A DNA stretch of 64,000 nt, taken from Ardenticatenaceae bacterium (GTDB lineage: Bacteria > Chloroflexota > Anaerolineae > Promineifilales > Promineifilaceae). Each line of letters begins with the position of its first letter. Positions within the stretch are counted from its first letter, which is position 1. The notes below the pieces were generated by a model, which saw only the letters and a list, made by a program, of their open reading frames with translations, was not told the DNA's origin and ran no database searches. Below are positions 2,862-52,158 of this stretch, in pieces. The stretch is from contig JACKBT010000009.1 of assembly GCA_020634415.1 (NCBI GenBank), positions 62,001 to 126,000 of the forward strand, read 5' to 3'. The position numbers were made by a program, and so were the translations under genes.

Positions 2862-3908
2862 TTAAGAATTGCGGCGGACATAGAAGGTGAGTCCACCAAA
2901 GATGATGAGTAGAATGCCGAGACCAACCTGGGCAAGGCGCAGGGGATTGGCAGTACCCACGTCGGCTGGTTCTGGTGTTGATGTTGGCGGTGATTGCTGT
3001 TCATCTGGGCTATCGGCCGTTGTGTTGGCTGCTGCGTCATCGTCAGCGGCCGTTTCGGTGGCCTGCACATCCAGGCTGCGATTTTCGGCCGTTTGTGTAG
3101 CCGGACGGGGCAGTTCCGAGGGTGTGGCGGTAGGGGCAGGTGTCGTCGTGGGGGCTGTGGTGGCGGTGGCCGCAGCTTCATCGGCGGTGAGGGGGGCGGG
3201 GGGAACGGCCGTTGCCTGTGGTGCGGATTCATCTGCAGCCCCACTGGTGGCAGCTTCACCCGCGGCCTCTTCTTCGGTCGTCTCCACCTCAACCATCTCT
3301 TCCTCTTCAGCGGGGGCAGCTTCGGCCATCGGTTCTTCAGCCATTGTCTCTGCCTCAGCGGTGTCATCCTCGGCCGTTTCTGCCTCAACCGCTGTCACTT
3401 CTTCCGTAACTACCACTTCATTGGCCGCCGATGAAGCGGCGGCCGATTCATCGGCACTTTCTTCTACAGCAAACGTGTCAGCCTCAGGAGCCGCACCTGT
3501 TTGCTCCTCGCTCATTGCCACTTCGGGCACAGCGGCTGTAGATTGTGTGGCCGAGCGCGACGGTTGGAAAAGGGTTAGCGAGAGTGCCAGGATAAAGAAG
3601 AGGGCGGTTAAGACAGTGGCTCCTTGCAGCACAGGGTAAAATTGGAAGAGAGGCTGGCGGGCCGGACGGCCGTATACAGCCGGGTCTAGTGTAAAGTTGC
3701 GGGGCACAGGGCGGCGGGGCAAACGGCGCATCTGCTGCTGTAGCTCACGCGAATTGTCTAGCTGCGCTTGCAAAACAGGGTCTCGTTCCAGCTCCTGCTC
3801 AAACTGCTGACGTTCGTGGGGCGTGAGGGCATCATCCAGGTAAGCCTGAAGCTGTTCCTGGCGTTTTTCCTCAGCAGATTTCGTCAAATTTCGTAAAAAG
3901 TCAAACAT
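2862..3908 (-). CDS. Anti-sigma factor-like membrane protein with acidic stalk
   Basis: This is the probable partner of the ECF sigma factor encoded immediately upstream (3952-4554). The 348-residue protein begins with a short helical cytoplasmic domain (QAYLDDALTPHERQQFEQEL, as in anti-sigma proteins) and one membrane helix near residue 90 (VLTALFFILALSLTLF). About 190 residues of E/A/T-rich low-complexity sequence follow, then a second hydrophobic segment near the C-terminus (LAQVGLGILLIIFGGLTFYV). No HxxxCxxC zinc motif is visible, so it is not a standard ZAS anti-sigma. The ATG at 3908 gives the protein that starts with the helical domain; upstream in-frame starts lie in a hairpin repeat. 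The role is inferred mainly from gene order. Confidence 0.65.
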   Translation of the reverse strand: MFDFLRNLTKSAEEKRQEQLQAYLDDALTPHERQQFEQELERDPVLQAQLDNSRELQQQMRRLPRRPVPRNFTLDPAVYGRPARQPLFQFYPVLQGATVLTALFFILALSLTLFQPSRSATQSTAAVPEVAMSEEQTGAAPEADTFAVEESADESAAASSAANEVVVTEEVTAVEAETAEDDTAEAETMAEEPMAEAAPAEEEEMVEVETTEEEAAGEAATSGAADESAPQATAVPPAPLTADEAAATATTAPTTTPAPTATPSELPRPATQTAENRSLDVQATETAADDDAAANTTADSPDEQQSPPTSTPEPADVGTANPLRLAQVGLGILLIIFGGLTFYVRRNS

Positions 3909-3921
3909 GATAAATAATTGC

Positions 3922-3945
3922 GTAATTGCGTAGTTACGCAATTAC
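3922..3945. repeat. GTAATTG-family hairpin between sigma and anti-sigma genes
   Basis: GTAATTGCGTA and TACGCAATTAC form a perfect 11-bp stem with a two-base loop. Related hairpins occur at 11561 and 52131. Confidence 0.75.
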
Positions 3946-10043: not shown

Positions 10044-10071
10044 TTGACAAGTGCCAGTCGCTTTCTATAAT
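10044..10071 (+). promoter_or_regulatory. Consensus promoter of the T-box leader
   Basis: TTGACA (10044-10049), a 16-base spacer and TATAAT (10066-10071) match the consensus exactly. Transcription should start near 10078, just ahead of T-box Stem I. Confidence 0.88.
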
Positions 10072-10091: not shown

Positions 10092-10404
10092 GTAAAACGA
10101 TGATCGGGACGAGTAACTGCTGCAACCGGTGTTAGAGAGCGAACGGCCGATAGGCTGAAAGCCGTCGCCACCAGGACAACAGCCAAAACCCCCCGTGAGT
10201 GATGCCCTGAAAGATAGCGAGTATGGGTGTTCGGTTGGCTCCGTTAACGGCCGTCTCAAAGGGTTATCCGTCGTCGGTAATCCGTAATCGGTAAACAGTA
10301 AACCGATTACCAATCACCAACTACCGATTACCGAAATTGGGTGGAACCGCGAATATCGGTGTAAACACAACGCCATCGCCCCATGTGGACGATGGCGTTT
10401 TTTA
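10092..10404 (+). promoter_or_regulatory. T-box riboswitch controlling asd
   Basis: Stem I signatures come in the expected order: GGGACGAGTA (AGTA at 10112-10115), AGAGAG (10134-10139) and the hairpin GGCTGAAAGCC (10153-10163). The T-box proper, TGGGTGGAACCGCG, is at 10338-10351. The antiterminator can be drawn by hand: TGGG and GCG flank the seven-base bulge TGGAACC and pair with the contiguous CGC-CCCA at 10377-10383. Those bases are part of a competing terminator (AACGCCATCG at 10369-10378, complement at 10390-10399, then six T). The bulge TGGA fits a tRNA with U before CCA. The best specifier candidate is ACC (Thr) at 10188-10190, in the loop opposite AGTA; this is a hand fold. Uncharged tRNA would stabilise the antiterminator and switch asd on. 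Confidence 0.88.
10274..10333. repeat. GGTAATC-family repeat inside the T-box leader
   Basis: Alternating CGGTAATCCGTAATCGG / CCGATTACC blocks form a hairpin between Stem I and the T-box motif. Relatives lie at 27618, 28310, 36725 and 48826, all intergenic. Confidence 0.75.
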
Positions 10405-11621: not shown

Positions 11622-12416
11622 TTATGGCGTAGGAATGGTTAACGTCTGGCCGACGTAAATCATGTAGGGTGCGCCAATGTTGTTGGCTTGGGCCAGATAA
11701 CGCCAATCCATGTTGTAGGCCAGGGCGATGCGGAACAGGTTTTCGCCGGGCTGCACAATGTGGGTGTTGGGAACGGCGGGTGGCGGCGGCTGAACGGGGG
11801 TCACGGGGGCAGCCGCTGGGATGAGGATCTCTTGCCCCACTTCGAGGTCGTTGGGGTCGTCCAGGTTGTTAATGGCCGCGATTTCGGTCCATTGCAGGCC
11901 GTAGGGCAGACCGATGAGGAAGAGGTTGTCGCCGGGCTGGACGATGTAGGTGATGGTGGGGCCGGTGATGGTGGCGGTTGTCTCGGTGGTGGTGGTGCTG
12001 GTTTCTTCGGTGGTTGTCTCGGTTTCGGCCGTTTCCTCGGCCGTTTCCTCGGTCGTGGTTTCGGTTTCGGCGGCTGTTTCTTCAGCTGCTTCGCTTTCTT
12101 TTTCGGGGGATTGAGTTTCTTCGGCCGTTTCGGTTTCGGTCGTGGTTTCTTCGGTTACTTCGGTCGTGGTTTCACTGTCAACGGCCGTTTCCTCTTCAGC
12201 CATCTCCTCCTCAGTTGTCTCTTCGCGGGGGGTATCGGCCGTTGCCGTTTCCGTCTCCGTGCTGGTCTCCTCCGTCGTTTCCGTTACCTCTGTCGTGGTC
12301 GTTTCTTCCGTAGCCGCTGGTTCATCGCTGTCACTGCGCCGCTGCAAAAAAAAGATGACGACAAATATGAGTAGGACTACCAGTAAAATGAGTAATAGAT
12401 TTCGCCTTGATCGCAT
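11622..12416 (-). CDS. Membrane-anchored protein with E/T-rich stalk and two LysM domains
   Basis: This 264-residue cell-surface protein has a basic N-terminus and one membrane helix (LLLILLVVLLIFVVIFFL). About 120 residues of Glu/Thr-rich low-complexity stalk follow. Two LysM repeats at about residues 165-210 (YIVQPGDNLFLIGLPYGL to VGQEILIPA) and 220-263 (HIVQPGENLFRIALAYNM to VGQTLTIPT) complete it. LysM binds N-acetylglucosamine-containing wall polymers in known families. The ATG at 12416 is preceded by AGGAGG. A similar one-LysM protein lies at 27676-28290. No catalytic domain is attached. Confidence 0.88.
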   Translation of the reverse strand: MRSRRNLLLILLVVLLIFVVIFFLQRRSDSDEPAATEETTTTEVTETTEETSTETETATADTPREETTEEEMAEEETAVDSETTTEVTEETTTETETAEETQSPEKESEAAEETAAETETTTEETAEETAETETTTEETSTTTTETTATITGPTITYIVQPGDNLFLIGLPYGLQWTEIAAINNLDDPNDLEVGQEILIPAAAPVTPVQPPPPAVPNTHIVQPGENLFRIALAYNMDWRYLAQANNIGAPYMIYVGQTLTIPTP

Positions 12417-12606
12417 CTCTGCCTCCTGGTGGGCTTGAATGTGGGAGGATCGCCACAACGCTCATTCAAAACCCGTTTGGTTAAATGTGGATGCCTCATT
12501 TTAGCACACTATGAGAAGAGTTGTCGCCTATTACGCTGGAGAGGGATCGGCAATAGATTGTCACAGGCTTGCCCGTTCTGAGGTAAACGCCATTAAAAAA
12601 TCGGCC

Positions 12607-12634
12607 TTGACATATAGACGGACATCTATATAAT
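12607..12634 (+). promoter_or_regulatory. Consensus promoter of the cysteine-rich micropeptide gene
   Basis: TTGACA (12607-12612), a 16-base spacer and TATAAT (12629-12634) match the consensus perfectly. It is overlapped by the first of two palindromic operators (12612-12658), so the promoter is strong by default and presumably held off by a repressor. Confidence 0.9.
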
Positions 12635-12658
12635 AAACATATAGACGCGCATCTATAT
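12612..12658 (+). promoter_or_regulatory. Two palindromic operators over the micropeptide promoter
   Basis: ATATAGACGGACATCTATAT (12612-12631) and ATATAGACGCGCATCTATAT (12639-12658) share perfect 7-bp arms ATATAGA/TCTATAT around a six-base centre and are 27 bp apart. The first covers the spacer and -10 box, the second the expected start of transcription. The size and placement recall operators of ArsR/SmtB-type metal- or arsenite-released repressors. That assignment is an inference, and no such regulator gene lies in the window. Confidence 0.85.
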
Positions 12659-12693
12659 ATTCAAAAAATAAATTTACAAGGAGGTAAAACCTG

Positions 12694-12765
12694 ATGGCTT
12701 ATTCACAGCGTAATTCTGATTGTTGTGGCGGTTCTGGCTGTTGTGGCGGTTCTGGCTGCTGCTAG
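12694..12765 (+). CDS. 23-residue cysteine-rich micropeptide
   Basis: ATG at 12694 follows a near-perfect ribosome binding site (AAGGAGGT at 12678-12685). It encodes a nine-residue leader (MAYSQRNSD) and then CCGGSGCCGGSGCC, ending in TAG. Three Cys-Cys pairs are spaced by identical GGSG linkers, so 6 of 23 residues are cysteine and there is no hydrophobic segment. The gene is complete: consensus promoter, double operator, ribosome binding site, short frame and a 15-bp-stem terminator within about 215 bases. By composition it could chelate a soft metal or arsenite, as a minimal metallothionein-like peptide would; it matches no family I can name. A signalling or modified-peptide precursor is possible but less likely, as no processing gene is adjacent. 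It is too short for standard gene callers. Confidence 0.82.
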   Translation: MAYSQRNSDCCGGSGCCGGSGCC

Positions 12766-12786
12766 TTGGCAGCGGGTGAACCTGAC

Positions 12787-12820
12787 GAAAAGAGCCATCT
12801 CTTGCGAGATGGCTCTTTTC
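12787..12820 (+). terminator. Rho-independent terminator of the micropeptide gene
   Basis: A perfect 15-bp stem (GAAAAGAGCCATCTC and its complement) has the loop TTGC and T-rich flanks. Because it is symmetrical, it could also stop transcription arriving from the convergent isocitrate lyase gene. Confidence 0.92.
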
Positions 12821-12858: not shown

Positions 12859-14157
12859 TTAGGCGGGAACGGCCGTTTGCGTAAACTGCGCCTCTTCTGT
12901 CGAGCCGTTCATAGCGGCGGTGCTGGCTAAGCCACCCGTTACCGCCATCTGCACCTCATCAAAATAACCAGCCCCCACAAAACTTTGGTGCTTCACCGCC
13001 CGGAAGCCAAATCTATCTTCCAGGTCAAACTCCTTCTCTTGCAGGCGCGAGTAAGCCGCCATGCCCTCGCTCTTATACGCCTGTGCCAGTTCAAACATGC
13101 TCGTATTCAGCGAATGGAAGCCCGCCAGCGTCACAAATTGGAACTTGTAGCCCATCCGTCCCAACTCCTGCTGGAACTTGGCAATCGTCTCATCATCCAA
13201 ATGGCGCTTCCAGTTGAAAGATGGCGAACAGTTATAAGCCAGCAGCTTGCCAGGGAACTTCTCATGGATGGCGTTGGCGAACATCTCCGCCTCGTGCAAA
13301 TCGGGGGTAGATGTTTCACACCAGATCACATCGGCGTAAGGGGCATAGGCCAGGCCACGCGCAATGGCACTTTCAATGCCGCCCGTCATCTGGTAGAAGC
13401 CTTCGCTGGTGCGTTCGCCCGTGAGGAAGGGCTGATCAGCCGGGTCAATGTCGCTGGTGATGAGGTGCGCCGAATCGGCATCGGTGCGAGCGATGAGGAC
13501 AGTGGGCACGCCCATCACATCGGCGGCGAGGCGGGCGGCTACTAATTTTTGGATAAATTCACGGGTGGGAACCAAGACTTTGCCGCCCATGTGTCCACAT
13601 TTTTTGGCCGAAGAGAGCTGGTCTTCAAAATGAACGCCAGCCGCGCCCGCTTCGATCATCATCTTCATCAGCTCAAAGGTGTTCAGCGAACCGCCAAAAC
13701 CAGATTCGCCATCGGCCACGATGGGGGCGAACCAATACACGCCATTTTGGCTGTTCATGTGGTAGGTCTGATCGGCCCGCAGCAGGGCGTTGTTGATGCG
13801 CTTGACGAGTTTGGGCGCACTATCGGCCGGATAGAGGCTTTGGTCGGGGTAGGTGTGGGCGGCTTCGTTGGCATCGGCGGCCACTTGCCAGCCGCTCAAG
13901 TAGATGGCTTTTAAGCCAGCCTGTACCATTTGCACGGCCTGGTTGCCCGTCAGCGCACCGAGGGCATTGACATAATCTTCGCTGTGCATGAGCTGCCACA
14001 GCCGTTCTGCGCCCATACGGGCCAGGGTATACTCAATTTGGATCGTGCCACGCAATTTGCAGACTTCTTCCGCGCCATACGGCCGTTTAATACCCGCCCA
14101 CCGCTTGTCATACATCCAATTCTCTTCCAAACTCCGCGTGCTGTAACTCTTGAACAT
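12859..14157 (-). CDS. aceA: Isocitrate lyase
   Basis: Splits isocitrate into glyoxylate and succinate, the first step of the glyoxylate shunt used for growth on acetate or fatty acids. The 432-residue protein has the family signature [20 protein letters not shown] with the catalytic Cys in KKCGHM, an upstream ESGFGG metal-binding segment and the SPSFNWKRH block. The length matches the bacterial type. ATG 14157 has AAGGAGA upstream. It follows malate synthase on the same strand, separated by a GAGACT repeat, so the two are probably co-transcribed and under the RamB-like regulator at 16058. Confidence 0.96.
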
Positions 14158-14171
14158 GACTCTCTCCTTAA

Positions 14172-14244
14172 TGGGGAGACTGGAGATTGGAGACTGGAGA
14201 CTGCGGTTCATTTACCTAGTCTCTAGTCCCTAGTCTCTCGTCTC
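14172..14244. repeat. GAGACT-family intergenic inverted repeat (copy 6)
   Basis: Left arm GGGGAGACTGGAGATTGGAG, right arm AGTCTCTAGTCCCTAGTCTC. It fills the gap between aceB and aceA and touches the aceB stop codon. Confidence 0.8.
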
Positions 14245-16042: not shown

Positions 16043-16057
16043 AATTGAGGCAATTTG

Positions 16058-17539
16058 ATGAGTATAAATCTGGTAAATGTAATTTTTGGCATGAAGGTGC
16101 GGCAGGCGCGGACGGAGGCGGATTTGACGCTGACGGATTTCGCGGCGCAGTGTGATTTGTCGCCGTCTTATGTGACGGACATTGAAAAGGGGCGCAAATA
16201 TCCGCGAGCGGACAAGATCATGCGCATCGCGGAGGTGTTGGGCAAGGAGTATGACGATCTGGTCTCGATTAAGCTGCCACCTTCGTTGACCTATCTGGAA
16301 TCTACGCTGTCGTCGGCGATTTTGCGCCGTTTTCCTTTTGCGGAGTTTGGTTTTGAGCCGGGCGATCTGGTGACGATGTTGACGCGGGAGCCGGACAAGG
16401 CCAGTGCGCTGCTCCATGCGGTGCTGGATATTGGACGGCGTTATGATTTGCAGGAGGCGGAGTTTTTGCGGGCGGCGCTGCGCTCTTATCAGGAGATGAA
16501 TGAGAATTACGCGCAGGAGTTGGAGGATGCGGCGTTGGCTTTTACGGCCGAATTTGCCGACCGCTATAGCCTAAGCAGCAATCCGCCAGTAGCCTTGCTG
16601 CGCCAGATTTTGACCGAGGTGTATGGTTATGAACTTGATGATGACACGATTGCCGAAAGTGCCCAATTGCAGGGCTTTCGCTGTGTGTTTGTGCCGGGGA
16701 AGAGGCCGAAGTTGTATGTAAACGGCCGTCTCACCACCACCCAAATCAAATTCCTGCTGGCGCGGGAAATTGGCTACCAATATTTGCAGCTAAAAGAACG
16801 CTCTCTCACCTCCACCCCGCATGAGATCACCTCGTTTCAACAGATTTTGAATGATTTTCGGGCCGCCTATTTTGGCGGCGCACTGCTGATGCCGCGAGCG
16901 GAGATGCTGGCCGATTTGCAGCAGATTTTTGCGATGAGTGCGTGGGATGAACGGCCGTTTCTCGACATGCTCACCCGTTATGATGTCACCCCCGAAATGC
17001 TGTTCTACCGCTTTAGCGAACTCATCCCCGAATTCTTTGGCATCAAATTCCACTTCTTGCGCTTCCACAAAGTAGACAGCAAATATCGGCTGTACAAGCA
17101 GTTGAACATGAATCGGCTGCCCATCCCCAGCGGCATTGGCCTGCACGAACATTACTGCCGCCGCTGGCTCTCTATCCGCCTGTTGGAGGATTTTCCTCTG
17201 GGCAATGGTTCTGAGGAATCGTTACGGATTGGGGTGCAGATGTCTGAGTTTGTGGAATCGGGTGATAAGTTTTTGTGTATTGGCTTCTCACGGCCGTTGC
17301 GCATGATGTCCGACGTGGGCAGCAGTGTCATTGTCGGTTTTCGCGTGGATGCGGAGTTGGGCAATATCATTCGTTTTGCCAATGACCCGGCCATCCCCCA
17401 ACTGTTGATTAATGAGACTTGTGAGCGCTGCCGGTTAACGGCCGATCAATGCCAAGACCGCGCCGCCCCTCCCACCATCTTACAAGCCGAAGCACAAGAC
17501 CGCGAAATCAAAGTCGCTTTGAACCAGTTGATGGGCTGA
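16058..17539 (+). CDS. RamB/ScfR-type XRE-family regulator
   Basis: This is the probable regulator of the divergent aceBA genes. The protein of about 493 residues begins with a helix-turn-helix (about residues 10-65: VRQARTEADLTLTDFAAQCD, then SPSYVTDIEKGRKYPRAD). A middle ImmA/IrrE-like domain follows, whose metallopeptidase motif is degenerate (REIGYQYL instead of HExxH). The C-terminal short-chain-fatty-acyl regulator domain has a cysteine-containing tail (CERCRLTADQC). RamB of actinobacteria, the best-known relative, controls isocitrate lyase and malate synthase, and the same gene pairing occurs here. ATG 16058 is chosen over the adjoining TTG at 16055. No strong ribosome binding site; the leader carries a 24-bp hairpin. 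Confidence 0.88.
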   Translation: MSINLVNVIFGMKVRQARTEADLTLTDFAAQCDLSPSYVTDIEKGRKYPRADKIMRIAEVLGKEYDDLVSIKLPPSLTYLESTLSSAILRRFPFAEFGFEPGDLVTMLTREPDKASALLHAVLDIGRRYDLQEAEFLRAALRSYQEMNENYAQELEDAALAFTAEFADRYSLSSNPPVALLRQILTEVYGYELDDDTIAESAQLQGFRCVFVPGKRPKLYVNGRLTTTQIKFLLAREIGYQYLQLKERSLTSTPHEITSFQQILNDFRAAYFGGALLMPRAEMLADLQQIFAMSAWDERPFLDMLTRYDVTPEMLFYRFSELIPEFFGIKFHFLRFHKVDSKYRLYKQLNMNRLPIPSGIGLHEHYCRRWLSIRLLEDFPLGNGSEESLRIGVQMSEFVESGDKFLCIGFSRPLRMMSDVGSSVIVGFRVDAELGNIIRFANDPAIPQLLINETCERCRLTADQCQDRAAPPTILQAEAQDREIKVALNQLMG

Positions 17540-24543: not shown

Positions 24544-24686
24544 GGCGCATAAAACTGTCAGGGGTGCTTATCTTTTTGTGTATGGACTTGAAAGACTGGA
24601 GCAGTTTTAAAAACTGCTCCAGTCTAGGGATACACCACATTTTATCGCACCCAAAACTGTCCTTGTTGTCATAGGGGGGATTGGGT

Positions 24687-25496
24687 ATGATTGCAGTTAT
24701 GGGTGAATTGGCTCCTGTGGAGCAGAAGCAAGTGTTGTTTTATGAGGATGAGGTAACGGCCGTTCGTATGGCAGATGGCACGGTGTATGTGCCGATACGG
24801 CCGTTGTGCGACTATTTGGGCGTGTCCTGGCAAGGGCAGCATCGGCGTATTACTGACGATCTGGTCATGTCTGAGGTTGTCATGTCTGTCAACGTAACGT
24901 TGACGGACATTGAACCAAACAGCCGCCGTCCGCATAGCAGCGAGATGCTGTGCCTGCCTCTGGATTATCTAAATGGCTGGTTGTTTGGCATTAATCCCAA
25001 ACGAGTGAAGGATGAGGCGCGAGAACAGGTGCTCCGTTACCAACGTGAATGTTATCGGGTGTTAGCAGATGCCTTTCAGAATACGGCCGTTGTTTCCTCT
25101 GCCTCCTCTTCCCTGGTCCACGTGCGGGAGATGGGTCTAGCCATTGTGCGCATGGCCGAGGAGCAAATGGCCTTTGATCGGCGGCTGGACGCGGCTGAGG
25201 GTCAGTTGGAAATTGTGGGACAATTGGCGGAGAGGTTAACGGCCGTTGAAGAAAAACTAACACCCTCACAATTAGTTACAGAAGAGCAAGCCAGCCAAAT
25301 CAGCCAATCCGTCAAAACCGTAGCCATCGCCCTGGGCAAAAAGAGCCAACGCAACGAATTCGGAGCCGTCTATGGCGAGCTTTATCGTCGCTATGGCATC
25401 ACCAGCTACAAAAGTTTACCCGCCCATAAATTTGAAGATGCCCTAAATTTCTTAACAGAATGGCATCAAGAAATCGTAACCGGTACGGCTTTTTAG
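24687..25496 (+). CDS. Phage-type antirepressor-like protein
   Basis: This 269-residue protein has an N-terminal P22-antirepressor-like domain. Residues 15-120 carry VLFYEDEVTAVRMADGTVYV, PIRPLCDYLGVSWQGQ and CLPLDYLNGWLFGI; such proteins in phages bind and inactivate repressors. A coiled-coil (about 140-195) leads to a C-terminal ORF6C-like domain (QRNEFGAVYGELYRRYGITS). The start at 24687 has GGGGGA upstream. It is followed on the same strand by DnaD-like and DnaC-like genes but no other phage gene, so it may be a domesticated or remnant phage regulator. The length is typical and the frame intact. Confidence 0.8.
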   Translation: MIAVMGELAPVEQKQVLFYEDEVTAVRMADGTVYVPIRPLCDYLGVSWQGQHRRITDDLVMSEVVMSVNVTLTDIEPNSRRPHSSEMLCLPLDYLNGWLFGINPKRVKDEAREQVLRYQRECYRVLADAFQNTAVVSSASSSLVHVREMGLAIVRMAEEQMAFDRRLDAAEGQLEIVGQLAERLTAVEEKLTPSQLVTEEQASQISQSVKTVAIALGKKSQRNEFGAVYGELYRRYGITSYKSLPAHKFEDALNFLTEWHQEIVTGTAF

Positions 25497-25591: not shown

Positions 25592-26299
25592 ATGCAAGGT
25601 TTTTCTGGCTTCCCCGCAGGCAAATTACGCCTGACACAGATACCCAACCTATTTTTTAGCGACCTGCTACCCATCATTGATAATCTGGCCGAGCTAAAGG
25701 TAACACTTTATGCGTTCTGGGCCTTAAACCAGAAGGATGGCAAGGTACGCTATATGCGCCTGACAGATTTTTTGAATGACACGCAGTTTGTAAAGGGGAT
25801 GGGGCCAACACTGGAACTAGCCACAGAAGCTCTACTAGATGGCGTTGAGCGGGCCGTCGCCCGCGGCACGTTTTTGCATGTGAATGTAGAGAGTGCCGAT
25901 GGCAAGATGGATTTGTACTTTTTGAATACAGAGAAGGGACGAACGGCCGTTGATGGCATCAGCAAAGGCGAATGGCGACCCACACCCAGCGATGACGAAC
26001 CCATCACCCTCCTCATCGAACGGCCCAACATCTTCGTCCTCTACGAACAAAACATCGGTGCCCTCACCCCCATGATCGCCGACGAACTCCGCGATGCCGA
26101 ACAAACCTATCCCATCCGCTGGATCGAAGAAGCCATCCAAAAAGCCATCGAAAACAACGTCCGCAAATGGCGTTACGTCGTCAGCATATTAGAGCGATGG
26201 CGGCAAGAAGGAAAACAAGATGGAATCTCTCAACGAGACTCTCAAAAAGGCTTACAACAACAAATCCCCGATGACCTTAAAAACATCATCAAACGATAA
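25592..26299 (+). CDS. DnaD-like replication protein
   Basis: A 235-residue protein with an N-terminal winged-helix-like region (SDLLPIIDNLAELKVTLYAF, RYMRLTDFL) and a C-terminal DnaD-type helical domain (about 145-215: FVLYEQNIGALTPMIADELR to KWRYVVSILERWRQEG). DnaD proteins remodel the replication origin and recruit the helicase loader. The downstream helicase-loader gene overlaps it by 80 bases, so the two are translationally linked. The origin could be host primosome or phage replication module. No strong Shine-Dalgarno before ATG 25592 (AATTGAGAAATC). Confidence 0.82.
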   Translation: MQGFSGFPAGKLRLTQIPNLFFSDLLPIIDNLAELKVTLYAFWALNQKDGKVRYMRLTDFLNDTQFVKGMGPTLELATEALLDGVERAVARGTFLHVNVESADGKMDLYFLNTEKGRTAVDGISKGEWRPTPSDDEPITLLIERPNIFVLYEQNIGALTPMIADELRDAEQTYPIRWIEEAIQKAIENNVRKWRYVVSILERWRQEGKQDGISQRDSQKGLQQQIPDDLKNIIKR

Positions 26300-27629
26300 C
26301 GACGACCTGAATAATGGCGGCATAGGGCAGCCCGACTGCCCCCACTGCGGCGGCTTAGGTTACGTCATCCCCGATGTGCCGCCCGAACACCCCTCCTTTG
26401 GCCGCGCCGTCACCTGCACCTGCCGCGCCGCCGAGCAAGAAATGGCACGGCTGGATCAACTACAGCAGATGAGCCAGATTGGCATGTTACAACACAACAC
26501 CTTCGACAACTTCTTGCCCGAAGGCATCGGCCTCACACCAGGCAAACAGCGCAACCTAAAAATGGCCTATGACCGCGCCCTGACCTACGCCCAAAAACCA
26601 GAAGGTTGGCTGGTGTTGAAGGGGGGCTATGGCTGTGGCAAAACACATCTGGCAGCGGCCGTTGCCAACTACCGCCTCTCCCTCGGTCATTCTGTCCTAT
26701 TCGTCAACACCCCCGATCTACTCGACCATTTGCGAGCCACCTACAGCCCCAGCGCCACCACCTCCTACGACCGCCGCTTTGATCAGGTGCGCAACAGCCA
26801 ACTGCTCATCCTCGATGATTTTGGCGCACAAAGCAACACCGAGTGGGCGCAGGAAAAGTTATATCAGATTTTCAACCATCGCTACGCGGCCAAACTGCCA
26901 ACGATTATCACGACCAACGAAGAGCTAGAAGCCATTGAAATGCGCATGCGCTCACGACTGGTTGATCCCAGTTTAGTGCAAATCATCACCATCACCGCCC
27001 CCGATTTTCGACGGGCTGGTGTGGATCAGGATCAGTCGGATTTGTCCTCATTGAACCTGCATGGGGACAAGACGTTTAACAATTTTGATTTGCGGGCCAA
27101 TGAACTGCCACGCCATCAGGCCGAGAATTTGCGGCGAGCCTATGACACGGCGTTGGAATTTGCCAATGAGCCAGCCGACTGGCTGGTGCTAAACAGCATT
27201 GGCTATGGCAATGGCAAAACCCATCTGGCGGCGGCGATTGCCAATCATATCGTCATGGAAGGCAATCCCGTGCTGTTTATTGTCGTGCCCGATTTATTGG
27301 ATCATCTGCGAGCCACATTTAATCCAGCCATGGGTGTACGTTTAGACAAACGATTTGACGAGATTAAAACAGCACCGCTCCTCATTTTGGATGATTTGGG
27401 GACGGAGAGTGCCACAGCCTGGGCACGGGAGAAGCTGTATCAGTTATTCAACTATCGCTACAATGCCCGCCTGCCCACGGTGATTACAACGGCCACGCCG
27501 ATTGATGAGATTGACCCGCGTCTGGCGACGCGGATGCTGGATGGCAGCCGCTGTACCTTTTTTGTGTTGGAAGTGCCGAGTTATCGCGGGGGGATTAAGC
27601 CAAAACGAACGAGAACAGGTAAACGGTAA
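26220..27629 (+). CDS. Double DnaC/DnaI-like AAA+ helicase loader (fused tandem)
   Basis: A 469-residue protein with an N-terminal zinc motif (CPHCGGLG, then CTC), followed by two consecutive DnaC/IstB-type AAA+ modules. Module 1 (about 95-280) has Walker A GGYGCGKTHLA, Walker B LLILDDFG and the sensor IITTNEE. Module 2 (about 295-465) has SIGYGNGKTHLA, LLILDDLG and VITTATP. The second P-loop lacks the first glycine of GxxxxGKT (Ile instead), so its ATP use may be altered. Equivalent segments (VNTPDLLDHLRATY / VVPDLLDHLRATF) show internal duplication. DnaC-like proteins place the replicative helicase on DNA, normally with one AAA+ domain. AAGGA precedes ATG 26220. It overlaps the DnaD-like gene. 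Confidence 0.88.
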   Translation: MESLNETLKKAYNNKSPMTLKTSSNDNDDLNNGGIGQPDCPHCGGLGYVIPDVPPEHPSFGRAVTCTCRAAEQEMARLDQLQQMSQIGMLQHNTFDNFLPEGIGLTPGKQRNLKMAYDRALTYAQKPEGWLVLKGGYGCGKTHLAAAVANYRLSLGHSVLFVNTPDLLDHLRATYSPSATTSYDRRFDQVRNSQLLILDDFGAQSNTEWAQEKLYQIFNHRYAAKLPTIITTNEELEAIEMRMRSRLVDPSLVQIITITAPDFRRAGVDQDQSDLSSLNLHGDKTFNNFDLRANELPRHQAENLRRAYDTALEFANEPADWLVLNSIGYGNGKTHLAAAIANHIVMEGNPVLFIVVPDLLDHLRATFNPAMGVRLDKRFDEIKTAPLLILDDLGTESATAWAREKLYQLFNYRYNARLPTVITTATPIDEIDPRLATRMLDGSRCTFFVLEVPSYRGGIKPKRTRTGKR

Positions 27630-42401: not shown

Positions 42402-43187
42402 ATGGCACAAATAGAAATGGTAAACACTTATTACGACATCATATATCTTTCACCACACCTGGATGATGCTGTTTTGTCTTGCGGCGGGCAGATTTTTCAG
42501 GCAACAGCCGTTCAGCGGCAATCCGTCCTCATTGTCACCATCATGGCTGGCGATCCGGTGGAGACGGCCGTTTCCGAGTTCGCCCAAGGCCAGCACCAAA
42601 GCTGGGACTTGCTCCACGAAGCCACCGCCCAACGCCGTGCCGAAGACATGGCCGCCTGCCGCCTCATCGGGGCCGATCATGCCCATTGGCAAGTACCCGA
42701 CTGCATCTACCGCCACCACCCCCAAACCGGCATCACCTTCTACAACTCCGACCCCGACATTTTTGGGGCTGTTCATCCGGCAGAATATCCACTTGTTGAT
42801 GACTTGGCCGCACAGCTAACCCATTTACCGCCGCACGGCCGCATCTTGGCCCCGTTGACCATTGGCAACCATGTGGATCACCAATTGACGCGGCTGGCAG
42901 CAGAAAAAGCCTTTGGCAGCAGGTTGGTTTATTATGAGGAGTACCCCTATGCGCAGCGGCTGGGCGGGGTAGATAGCGTGATTGCACCGGATGATCCCCA
43001 GTGGCAAGCGGAGGTTATGCCCCTTAGCCCCGAGGCGTTGCAAATGAAGATTAAGGCCATTGCTGCCTATCCCTCACAGATGGCGAATCTATTTAACGGC
43101 CGTTCCCACATGATTCAACTCGTCACCGATTACACGCAAACCATTGGTGGCGAACGAATCTGGTATGGTAATTACGAAATTACGTAA
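42402..43187 (+). CDS. PIG-L family deacetylase
   Basis: A zinc-dependent N-acetylglucosaminyl-type deacetylase of 261 residues. The metal-binding motif is SPHLDDAVLSCGG (PHxDD) near residue 15, with a second histidine site in IGNHVDHQLTRLAAE. Relatives act on GlcNAc-PI, mycothiol or bacillithiol precursors, or chitin oligosaccharides; the substrate cannot be told here. The start could be ATG 42402 or ATG 42417. The -10 at 42382 leaves only about 10-20 bases of leader. Confidence 0.88.
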   Translation: MAQIEMVNTYYDIIYLSPHLDDAVLSCGGQIFQATAVQRQSVLIVTIMAGDPVETAVSEFAQGQHQSWDLLHEATAQRRAEDMAACRLIGADHAHWQVPDCIYRHHPQTGITFYNSDPDIFGAVHPAEYPLVDDLAAQLTHLPPHGRILAPLTIGNHVDHQLTRLAAEKAFGSRLVYYEEYPYAQRLGGVDSVIAPDDPQWQAEVMPLSPEALQMKIKAIAAYPSQMANLFNGRSHMIQLVTDYTQTIGGERIWYGNYEIT

Positions 43188-43205
43188 TTTCAAAAGGAAC
43201 TCCCC

Positions 43206-52130: not shown

Positions 52131-52158
52131 GTACGTAATTACGCAATTACGTAATTAC
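52131..52158. repeat. GTAATTAC palindromic repeat between argS and dcd
   Basis: GTACGTAATTACGCAATTAC with a further GTAATTAC is internally palindromic and overlaps the argS stop codon. Same low-GC family as 3922-3945. Confidence 0.7.

Follow-up and report, generated by a model that had tools for sequence, protein, structure and literature searches.

What does a consensus promoter control when it is overlaid by two matching palindromes and followed by a frame of only 23 codons, six of which specify cysteine? The question is raised by a complete small plus-strand unit within positions 12607–12820 of the window, by which we mean the whole stretch of DNA analysed here, 64 kb in length. The unit lies between a LysM-domain gene (11622–12458, minus strand) on one side and aceA, the isocitrate lyase gene (12859–14211, minus strand, convergent), on the other. 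An earlier note on this DNA had described a consensus promoter, two palindromes with identical arms, the element AAGGAGGT, a 23-codon frame and a hairpin with a 15-bp stem, and every one of these elements can be read directly at the locus:

12607–12634, plus strand: sigma-70 promoter TTGACA-N16-TATAAT, a 12/12 match to the consensus
12607–12612, plus strand: −35 element TTGACA
12629–12634, plus strand: −10 element TATAAT, after a 16-bp spacer
12612–12631, no strand assigned: operator 1, ATATAGACGGACATCTATAT, that is ATATAGAC-GGAC-ATCTATAT, an exact ATATAGA-N6-TCTATAT
12639–12658, no strand assigned: operator 2, ATATAGACGCGCATCTATAT, that is ATATAGAC-GCGC-ATCTATAT, an exact ATATAGA-N6-TCTATAT
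12678–12685, plus strand: Shine-Dalgarno sequence AAGGAGGT, 8 nt 5′ of the ATG
12694–12765, plus strand: 23-codon frame for MAYSQRNSDCCGGSGCCGGSGCC, with its ATG at 12694 and TAG as the stop
12787–12820, no strand assigned: hairpin with a 15-bp stem and the 4-nt loop TTGC, terminating the micro-gene and perhaps aceA as well

The locus is a well-formed micro-gene, in which the operators overlap the promoter and start and are doubled. Operator 2, 27 bp downstream of operator 1, covers the predicted transcription start (~12641), as had been claimed for the pair; the accompanying claim that the palindromes cover the −10 element holds only in part, in that operator 1 begins at the last −35 base, occupies mainly the spacer, which it fills, and reaches only the first three −10 bases. 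The description of the terminator likewise needs some qualification. Its 15-bp stem is present, and a 65-nt fold gives −29.4 kcal/mol (z −4.59), but no long U tract follows the stem, because part of the U run lies inside it. The stop codon of convergent aceA is followed 38 bp later by the hairpin, which may therefore serve both genes.

Compared with 150 first-order Markov sequences, each of the window's length (64 kb), both the promoter and the tandem palindromes exceed chance. Perfect 12/12 promoters number two in the window against a mean of 0.027 per Markov sequence; tandem identical-arm 7-6-7 palindromes 20–60 bp apart, of which the window has one, occurred in 0/150; and the five window matches to the palindrome with three or fewer mismatches compare with 0.55 expected. 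The single 15–40-aa frame with at least six Cys behind GGAGG was equalled in 2/150 Markov sequences. The second perfect sigma-70 promoter of the window lies at 10044–10071 (plus strand), upstream of a semialdehyde dehydrogenase gene at 10383. Perfect 7-6-7 palindromes as a class are also frequent (17 in the window versus 4.9 expected), and those of the AATTACG-N6-CGTAATT type recur at 43170–43189, 52133–52156 and 3924–3943.

The earlier note had proposed asking whether the palindrome also precedes ArsR-family or arsenic genes. We sought exact copies of ATATAGA-N6-TCTATAT in 665 genomes, taken in three draws that were each spread evenly over phyla around one centre; the plain palindrome was used for these scans because a pattern joining TTGAC to the operator gave no matches in the 249 Bacillota-centred genomes. 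It occurred at 25 sites: 4 in 3/296 genomes of the Actinomycetota-centred draw, 9 in 8/249 of the Bacillota-centred draw and 12 in 10/120 of the Spirochaetota-centred draw, with 3/4, 3/9 and 0/12 sites, respectively, linked to arsR, where linkage means that an ArsR-family gene starts no more than 62 nt from the palindrome's first base. All six linked ArsRs (6/25 sites) scored above the NF033788 metalloregulator cut-off. One 4-Mb genome had 10 HTH_5 matches, a frequency at which linkage by chance would be ~0.001 per site, and 6/25 then corresponds to P ~2e-13. The reversed pattern served as a control: the 249 genomes of the Bacillota-centred draw contained 11 copies, none linked to arsR (0/11), and the crude contrast with 6/25 is weak (P = 0.09). 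With no arsR called near 19/25 sites, the palindrome lacks specificity when taken by itself; these calls relied on an HMM derived from the linked ArsRs themselves, which could miss a distant ArsR near other sites. The plain palindrome was absent from the four genomes from which L233–L236 come, and a comparison of the promoter stretch with plasmids returned 11 weak matches, the best being in an Enterococcus faecalis plasmid, 5′ of a hypothetical protein.

Specificity improves when the palindrome is considered together with its promoter. Promoters were scored at all 25 sites on both strands, within ~45 bp and with a 16–18-bp spacer; the five sites that reached at least 11/12 were all arsR-linked, versus one of the 20 others (Fisher 1e-4, for a threshold picked after the data were seen). 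A second palindrome copy with two or fewer mismatches was present at 4/25 sites, each of them arsR-linked, and the window itself combines a 12/12 promoter with a perfect second copy. The full design, a strong promoter with a doubled palindrome, is more arsR-specific than the palindrome alone. One of the 11 reversed-pattern control sites (L310) has an 11/12 promoter without arsR.

The genes that follow arsR at the linked sites point to arsenic. By Pfam, the next gene encodes an ArsP_1 permease at four loci (L257, L258, L275 and L279, the scan of L279 covering the part not masked by N) and an SBF-family transporter, which we take to be ACR3-like, at L274. A scan of viral contigs for the doubled palindrome returned 15 stretches, including L254, classed as viral, in which TTGACA-operator-TATATT and a second operator at +23 (one mismatch) precede an arsR gene (97 aa; NF033788, 93.6 bits) and then the start of an arsD gene (PF06953, 53 bits); the palindrome in this promoter has a position similar to that of operator 1 in the window. 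Between 5500 and 6500, before the 97-aa arsR frame, L254 also has a partial tandem copy of the arsR promoter and 5′ end; the arsD start ends early, and frames that look transposase-like by reading flank the region. The arsR-arsP, arsR-SBF and arsR-arsD units, from Actinomycetota- and Bacillota-centred genomes and L254, carry a palindrome identical to that of the window. Across all seven arsR loci, L254 included, the promoter scores at least 11/12 with a 16–18-bp spacer in six (L256 excepted), and a tandem second site with two or fewer mismatches is found in five.

The operator-promoter design is thus associated with arsR and arsenic genes elsewhere, and because palindrome and promoter layout precede these three kinds of unit, we favour arsenic over metals in general. 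Of the interpretation given in the earlier note, the part that gains support is a repressor of ArsR/SmtB type sensing a thiophilic metal(loid) or arsenite, since the same palindrome lies before ars genes. The repressors themselves are consistent with this assignment: five of the six genomic ArsRs contain CAC, within ELCAC, ERCAC or EMCAC, in the same place as ELCVCDL, given in PMC4562236 as the arsenite site of ArsR. According to that paper, a Bacillus ArsR comes off its promoter in response to arsenite but not to arsenate.

Control by an SmtB-, CzrA- or CadC-like repressor, with the peptide as a mini-metallothionein for Zn, Cd or Cu, is in our view unlikely. It sits poorly with the ArsP_1 or SBF gene found after arsR at all five genomic sites whose promoter reaches 11/12 or better, with ArsD in viral L254, and with the CAC-type arsenite site in 5/6 genomic ArsRs. 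It draws support from the 7-6-7 layout with ATA ends, which is the general ArsR/SmtB design (the CzrA operator being ATATGAA-N6-TTCATAT), and from the ability of Cys pairs to bind Cd, Zn and Cu(I) as well. Arsenic does not suit the sixth arsR-linked site, L256, where the promoter scores 9 (11 only with a 15-bp spacer), the ArsR is without the CAC motif and the frame that follows does not look like an arsenic gene by reading. Both operators can, in addition, be read as imperfect 12-2-12 repeats (8/12 arm positions match in operator 1 and 10/12 in operator 2), of the kind described for nmtA/AzuR in PMC8790569.

Viral contigs also supply the evidence for a repressor of another kind. TTGAC joined to the palindrome was found in 12 viral stretches, one of which has arsR (L254), while five are phage-promoter-like and six coding or unclear. 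In the phage-promoter-like group (L262 at 900–925, with L266 and L269 of the same sequence; L265; and L268 at 3277–3302), TTGACA and TATAAT stand around ATATAGA-N6-TCTATAT without arsR, and in L268 a frame reading as an HTH protein lies 192 nt downstream. A phage repressor may use an ars-type operator sequence in these promoters, and because viral TTGACA promoters carry the palindrome without arsR, a non-ArsR repressor is conceivable at the window locus: a phage-type protein such as a Cro/CI-like one would bind the palindromes, and the peptide would have another role. The P22_AR_N/ORF6C antirepressor gene in the window (24681–25496, plus strand) would suit such a reading, but the micro-gene lies among core genes 12 kb from this phage-like gene, all five strong-promoter sites in bacterial genomes are arsR-linked, and a Cys-pair peptide fits thiophile stress; we regard this kind of control as improbable. 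The antirepressor gene is itself within a core-gene region and is followed at 26220–27629 (plus strand) by a gene whose long ATPase product matches DnaC/IstB over two stretches; both genes are phage- or element-derived. In a further viral contig, L264, positions 626–650 read TTGACATATAGAC-AACC-GTCTATAT, with the same −35/operator overlap as in the window and no clear downstream gene.

Returning to ArsR-type control, what would it serve? The peptide MAYSQRNSDCCGGSGCCGGSGCC (2.2 kDa) has a (CCGGSG)x2-CC core in which six of its 23 residues are Cys, arranged in three vicinal pairs; no signal peptide is evident by reading, and in being small, cytosolic and rich in Cys the product resembles bacterial metallothioneins (SmtA/BmtA, MymT). 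Each CCGGSG unit is encoded by the same 18 bp of DNA, so the two may have arisen by simple repeat expansion, and the last CC pair is encoded by TGC TGC instead of TGT TGT, two synonymous changes relative to the other pairs. The peptide had no family match in NCBIfam or Pfam (E 0.1), for whose models a 23-residue query is short; it matched neither PF06953 (ArsD) nor any PDB sequence.

Relatives were sought at the DNA level as well. The two-repeat pattern with TCN serines had no match in viral contigs, and in genome contigs, from a collection described as holding 84,980 species, the exact pattern CCGG-x-GCCGG-x-GCC (x being a WSN-encoded residue) gave five matches, all in repeat-rich DNA and none window-like by reading; because the genome scan asked for the exact two-repeat pattern only, shorter or varied relatives would be missed. 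The one-repeat pattern matched 115 viral stretches, all of which lacked the operator over the 300 nt 5′ of the match, and a looser CCGxxxCCGxxxCC pattern matched at least 120 stretches. With tblastn, no match to the peptide was found in plasmids and phages, and a protein database search returned one candidate, with none scored. Across viral contigs, genome contigs (exact two-repeat pattern), plasmids, phages and the protein database there was no second copy, which leaves the suggestion of an overlooked family without a second member. Nor did the proposed co-occurrence appear: no other operator site had a convincing short CC-rich frame downstream, and frames with at least four Cys near the operator in L264, L268 and L280 look spurious. 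In the literature covered, outside which most subscription journals lie, no text contained CCGGSGCC or CCGGSCC, and no ArsR-controlled arsenic micropeptide appeared in the titles and abstract beginnings of the matches listed.

The lack of a peptide homologue in the searches made would also be expected if the Cys-rich frame were incidental and the unit were a relocated ars promoter or encoded a small regulatory RNA, and a transcript of ~180 nt with a strong hairpin would suit an RNA of this type. We find this doubtful, and somewhat more so than a phage-type repressor, given the well-placed Shine-Dalgarno sequence before a frame that starts with ATG and has Cys at six of its 23 codons, of a kind reached in so few of the random 64-kb sequences, and given that the last CC pair differs by synonymous changes only.

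The neighbours of the micro-gene are ordinary core genes: asd, a LysM protein gene, aceA, aceB, an HTH_3/Peptidase_M78 regulator gene and an acyltransferase gene. Among the best 120 of 8000 clusters scored, the aceA product is closest to Chloroflexota, with top identities of 93% and 90% (both metagenomic) and then 89%, ~84% to Ardenticatenaceae, Anaerolineae and Anaerolineaceae clusters, and 76–79% to Promineifilaceae; aceA was not found in viral contigs. The HTH_3 and Peptidase_M78 (IrrE-like) protein encoded at 16055–17539 (plus strand), divergent from aceB-aceA, resembles RamB-type glyoxylate regulators, and on the strength of this resemblance and orientation it is likely to regulate the neighbouring glyoxylate genes. 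No arsenic gene was found among 45 distinct window proteins scanned (62 candidate frames listed), no arsR or efflux gene adjoins the micro-gene within the window, and an HMM of seven ArsR proteins had no match among the 840 open segments of at least 40 codons in its six frames. A repressor would have to act in trans. A short frame rich in one amino acid and followed by a terminator might be taken for the leader peptide of a transcription attenuator that responds to cysteine or arsenic, but gene orientation nearly excludes this: aceA and aceB are both convergent with the micro-gene, no co-oriented gene lies directly downstream and the next likely one starts at 16055. MerR-type promoters have spacers of 19–20 bp, and control of that type is ruled out by the 16-bp spacer here.

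A lone Cys-rich gene with a remote repressor has precedent. The metallothionein genes nmtA of Anabaena and smtA of Synechococcus, under the SmtB/ArsR repressors AzuR and SmtB, are likewise single Cys-rich genes; as here, their promoter and start site are covered by inverted repeats, one or two in number, and the azuR gene lies apart from nmtA in the genome (PMC8790569). The window differs from these systems in that its product has 23 residues and no family-model match, and in its ATATAGA core, as at ars promoters, instead of the TGA-containing 12-2-12 core (PMC8790569). It differs from the arsR units in another respect, since their operator controls arsR together with efflux or chaperone genes, whereas in the window it precedes a lone micropeptide gene with no arsR in the window.

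Among arsenic proteins, the ArsD metallochaperone offers a parallel for vicinal Cys pairs encoded in an ArsR-controlled unit: the L254 fragment has an N-terminal CC, and E. coli ArsD has C-terminal Cys pairs (PMC4562236). The ArsD model, however, spans 123 positions against the 23 residues of the peptide. Gly/Ser-rich CC clusters that resemble the peptide in kind also occur in the Cys-rich N-terminal segment of ArsM: CC-x(1–8)-CC clusters precede the methyltransferase domain in four of 20 ArsM-like loci examined, 16 of which were readable (CCGPQAGSCC, CCKSGCC, CCGPDCC and CCGSDGGCC, at L281, L286, L287 and L290 of Actinomycetota-centred genomes). That segment is part of an enzyme, whereas the peptide has no methyltransferase domain. 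Other proteins, too, use Cys pairs for As(III): for two ArsRs, PMC4562236 gives Cys95/96/102 and Cys15/16/55.

Taking these lines together, we estimate a probability of about 0.6 that the micro-gene is an ArsR-repressed, arsenite-induced lone gene of a Chloroflexota ars regulon whose peptide binds As(III). Its predicted ars-type regulation is well supported by the sequence comparisons; what we infer, as set out next, is which repressor acts in trans, that the gene is induced and translated, and that its product binds As(III). Two dimers of an ArsR-family protein, its gene lying elsewhere in the genome, would occupy the tandem palindromes, over spacer and start, where they would exclude polymerase and block the consensus promoter. 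Arsenite (or antimonite) would bind the repressor's cysteines and release it, and a leader-ORF-terminator transcript of ~180 nt would then be made at a high rate, with translation starting from a strong ribosome site. As a buffer or carrier, the 23-residue product would capture As(III) by three-coordinate thiolate binding through its three Cys-Cys pairs, which Gly/Ser linkers join; its six Cys would be enough for two such sites. The earlier suggestion of a translated, metal-binding minimal metallothionein is likewise an inference.

In conclusion, the locus is very likely under ars-type control and reads as a new variation on the known ArsR/SmtB-metallothionein arrangement. A lone three-Cys-pair frame behind a double repressor site typical of arsenic-resistance genes is probably a miniature arsenic-binding peptide gene, overlooked by gene finders. 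Only tentatively would we go further and see in it the first representative of a class of As-binding micropeptides, (CCGGSG)nCC, controlled by ArsR and below the annotation size cut-off, each a lone As(III) sponge or carrier induced from a double ars operator and apart from the efflux operon. As a practical handle, genomes could be screened for the combination of ars double operator and consensus promoter to find Cys-rich micropeptides that annotation has missed, since the peptide itself is much harder to recognise than its regulatory half. If the reading is true, arsenite would be handled by a dedicated, encoded 2.2-kDa thiol peptide, besides efflux, methylation and glutathione-type thiols.
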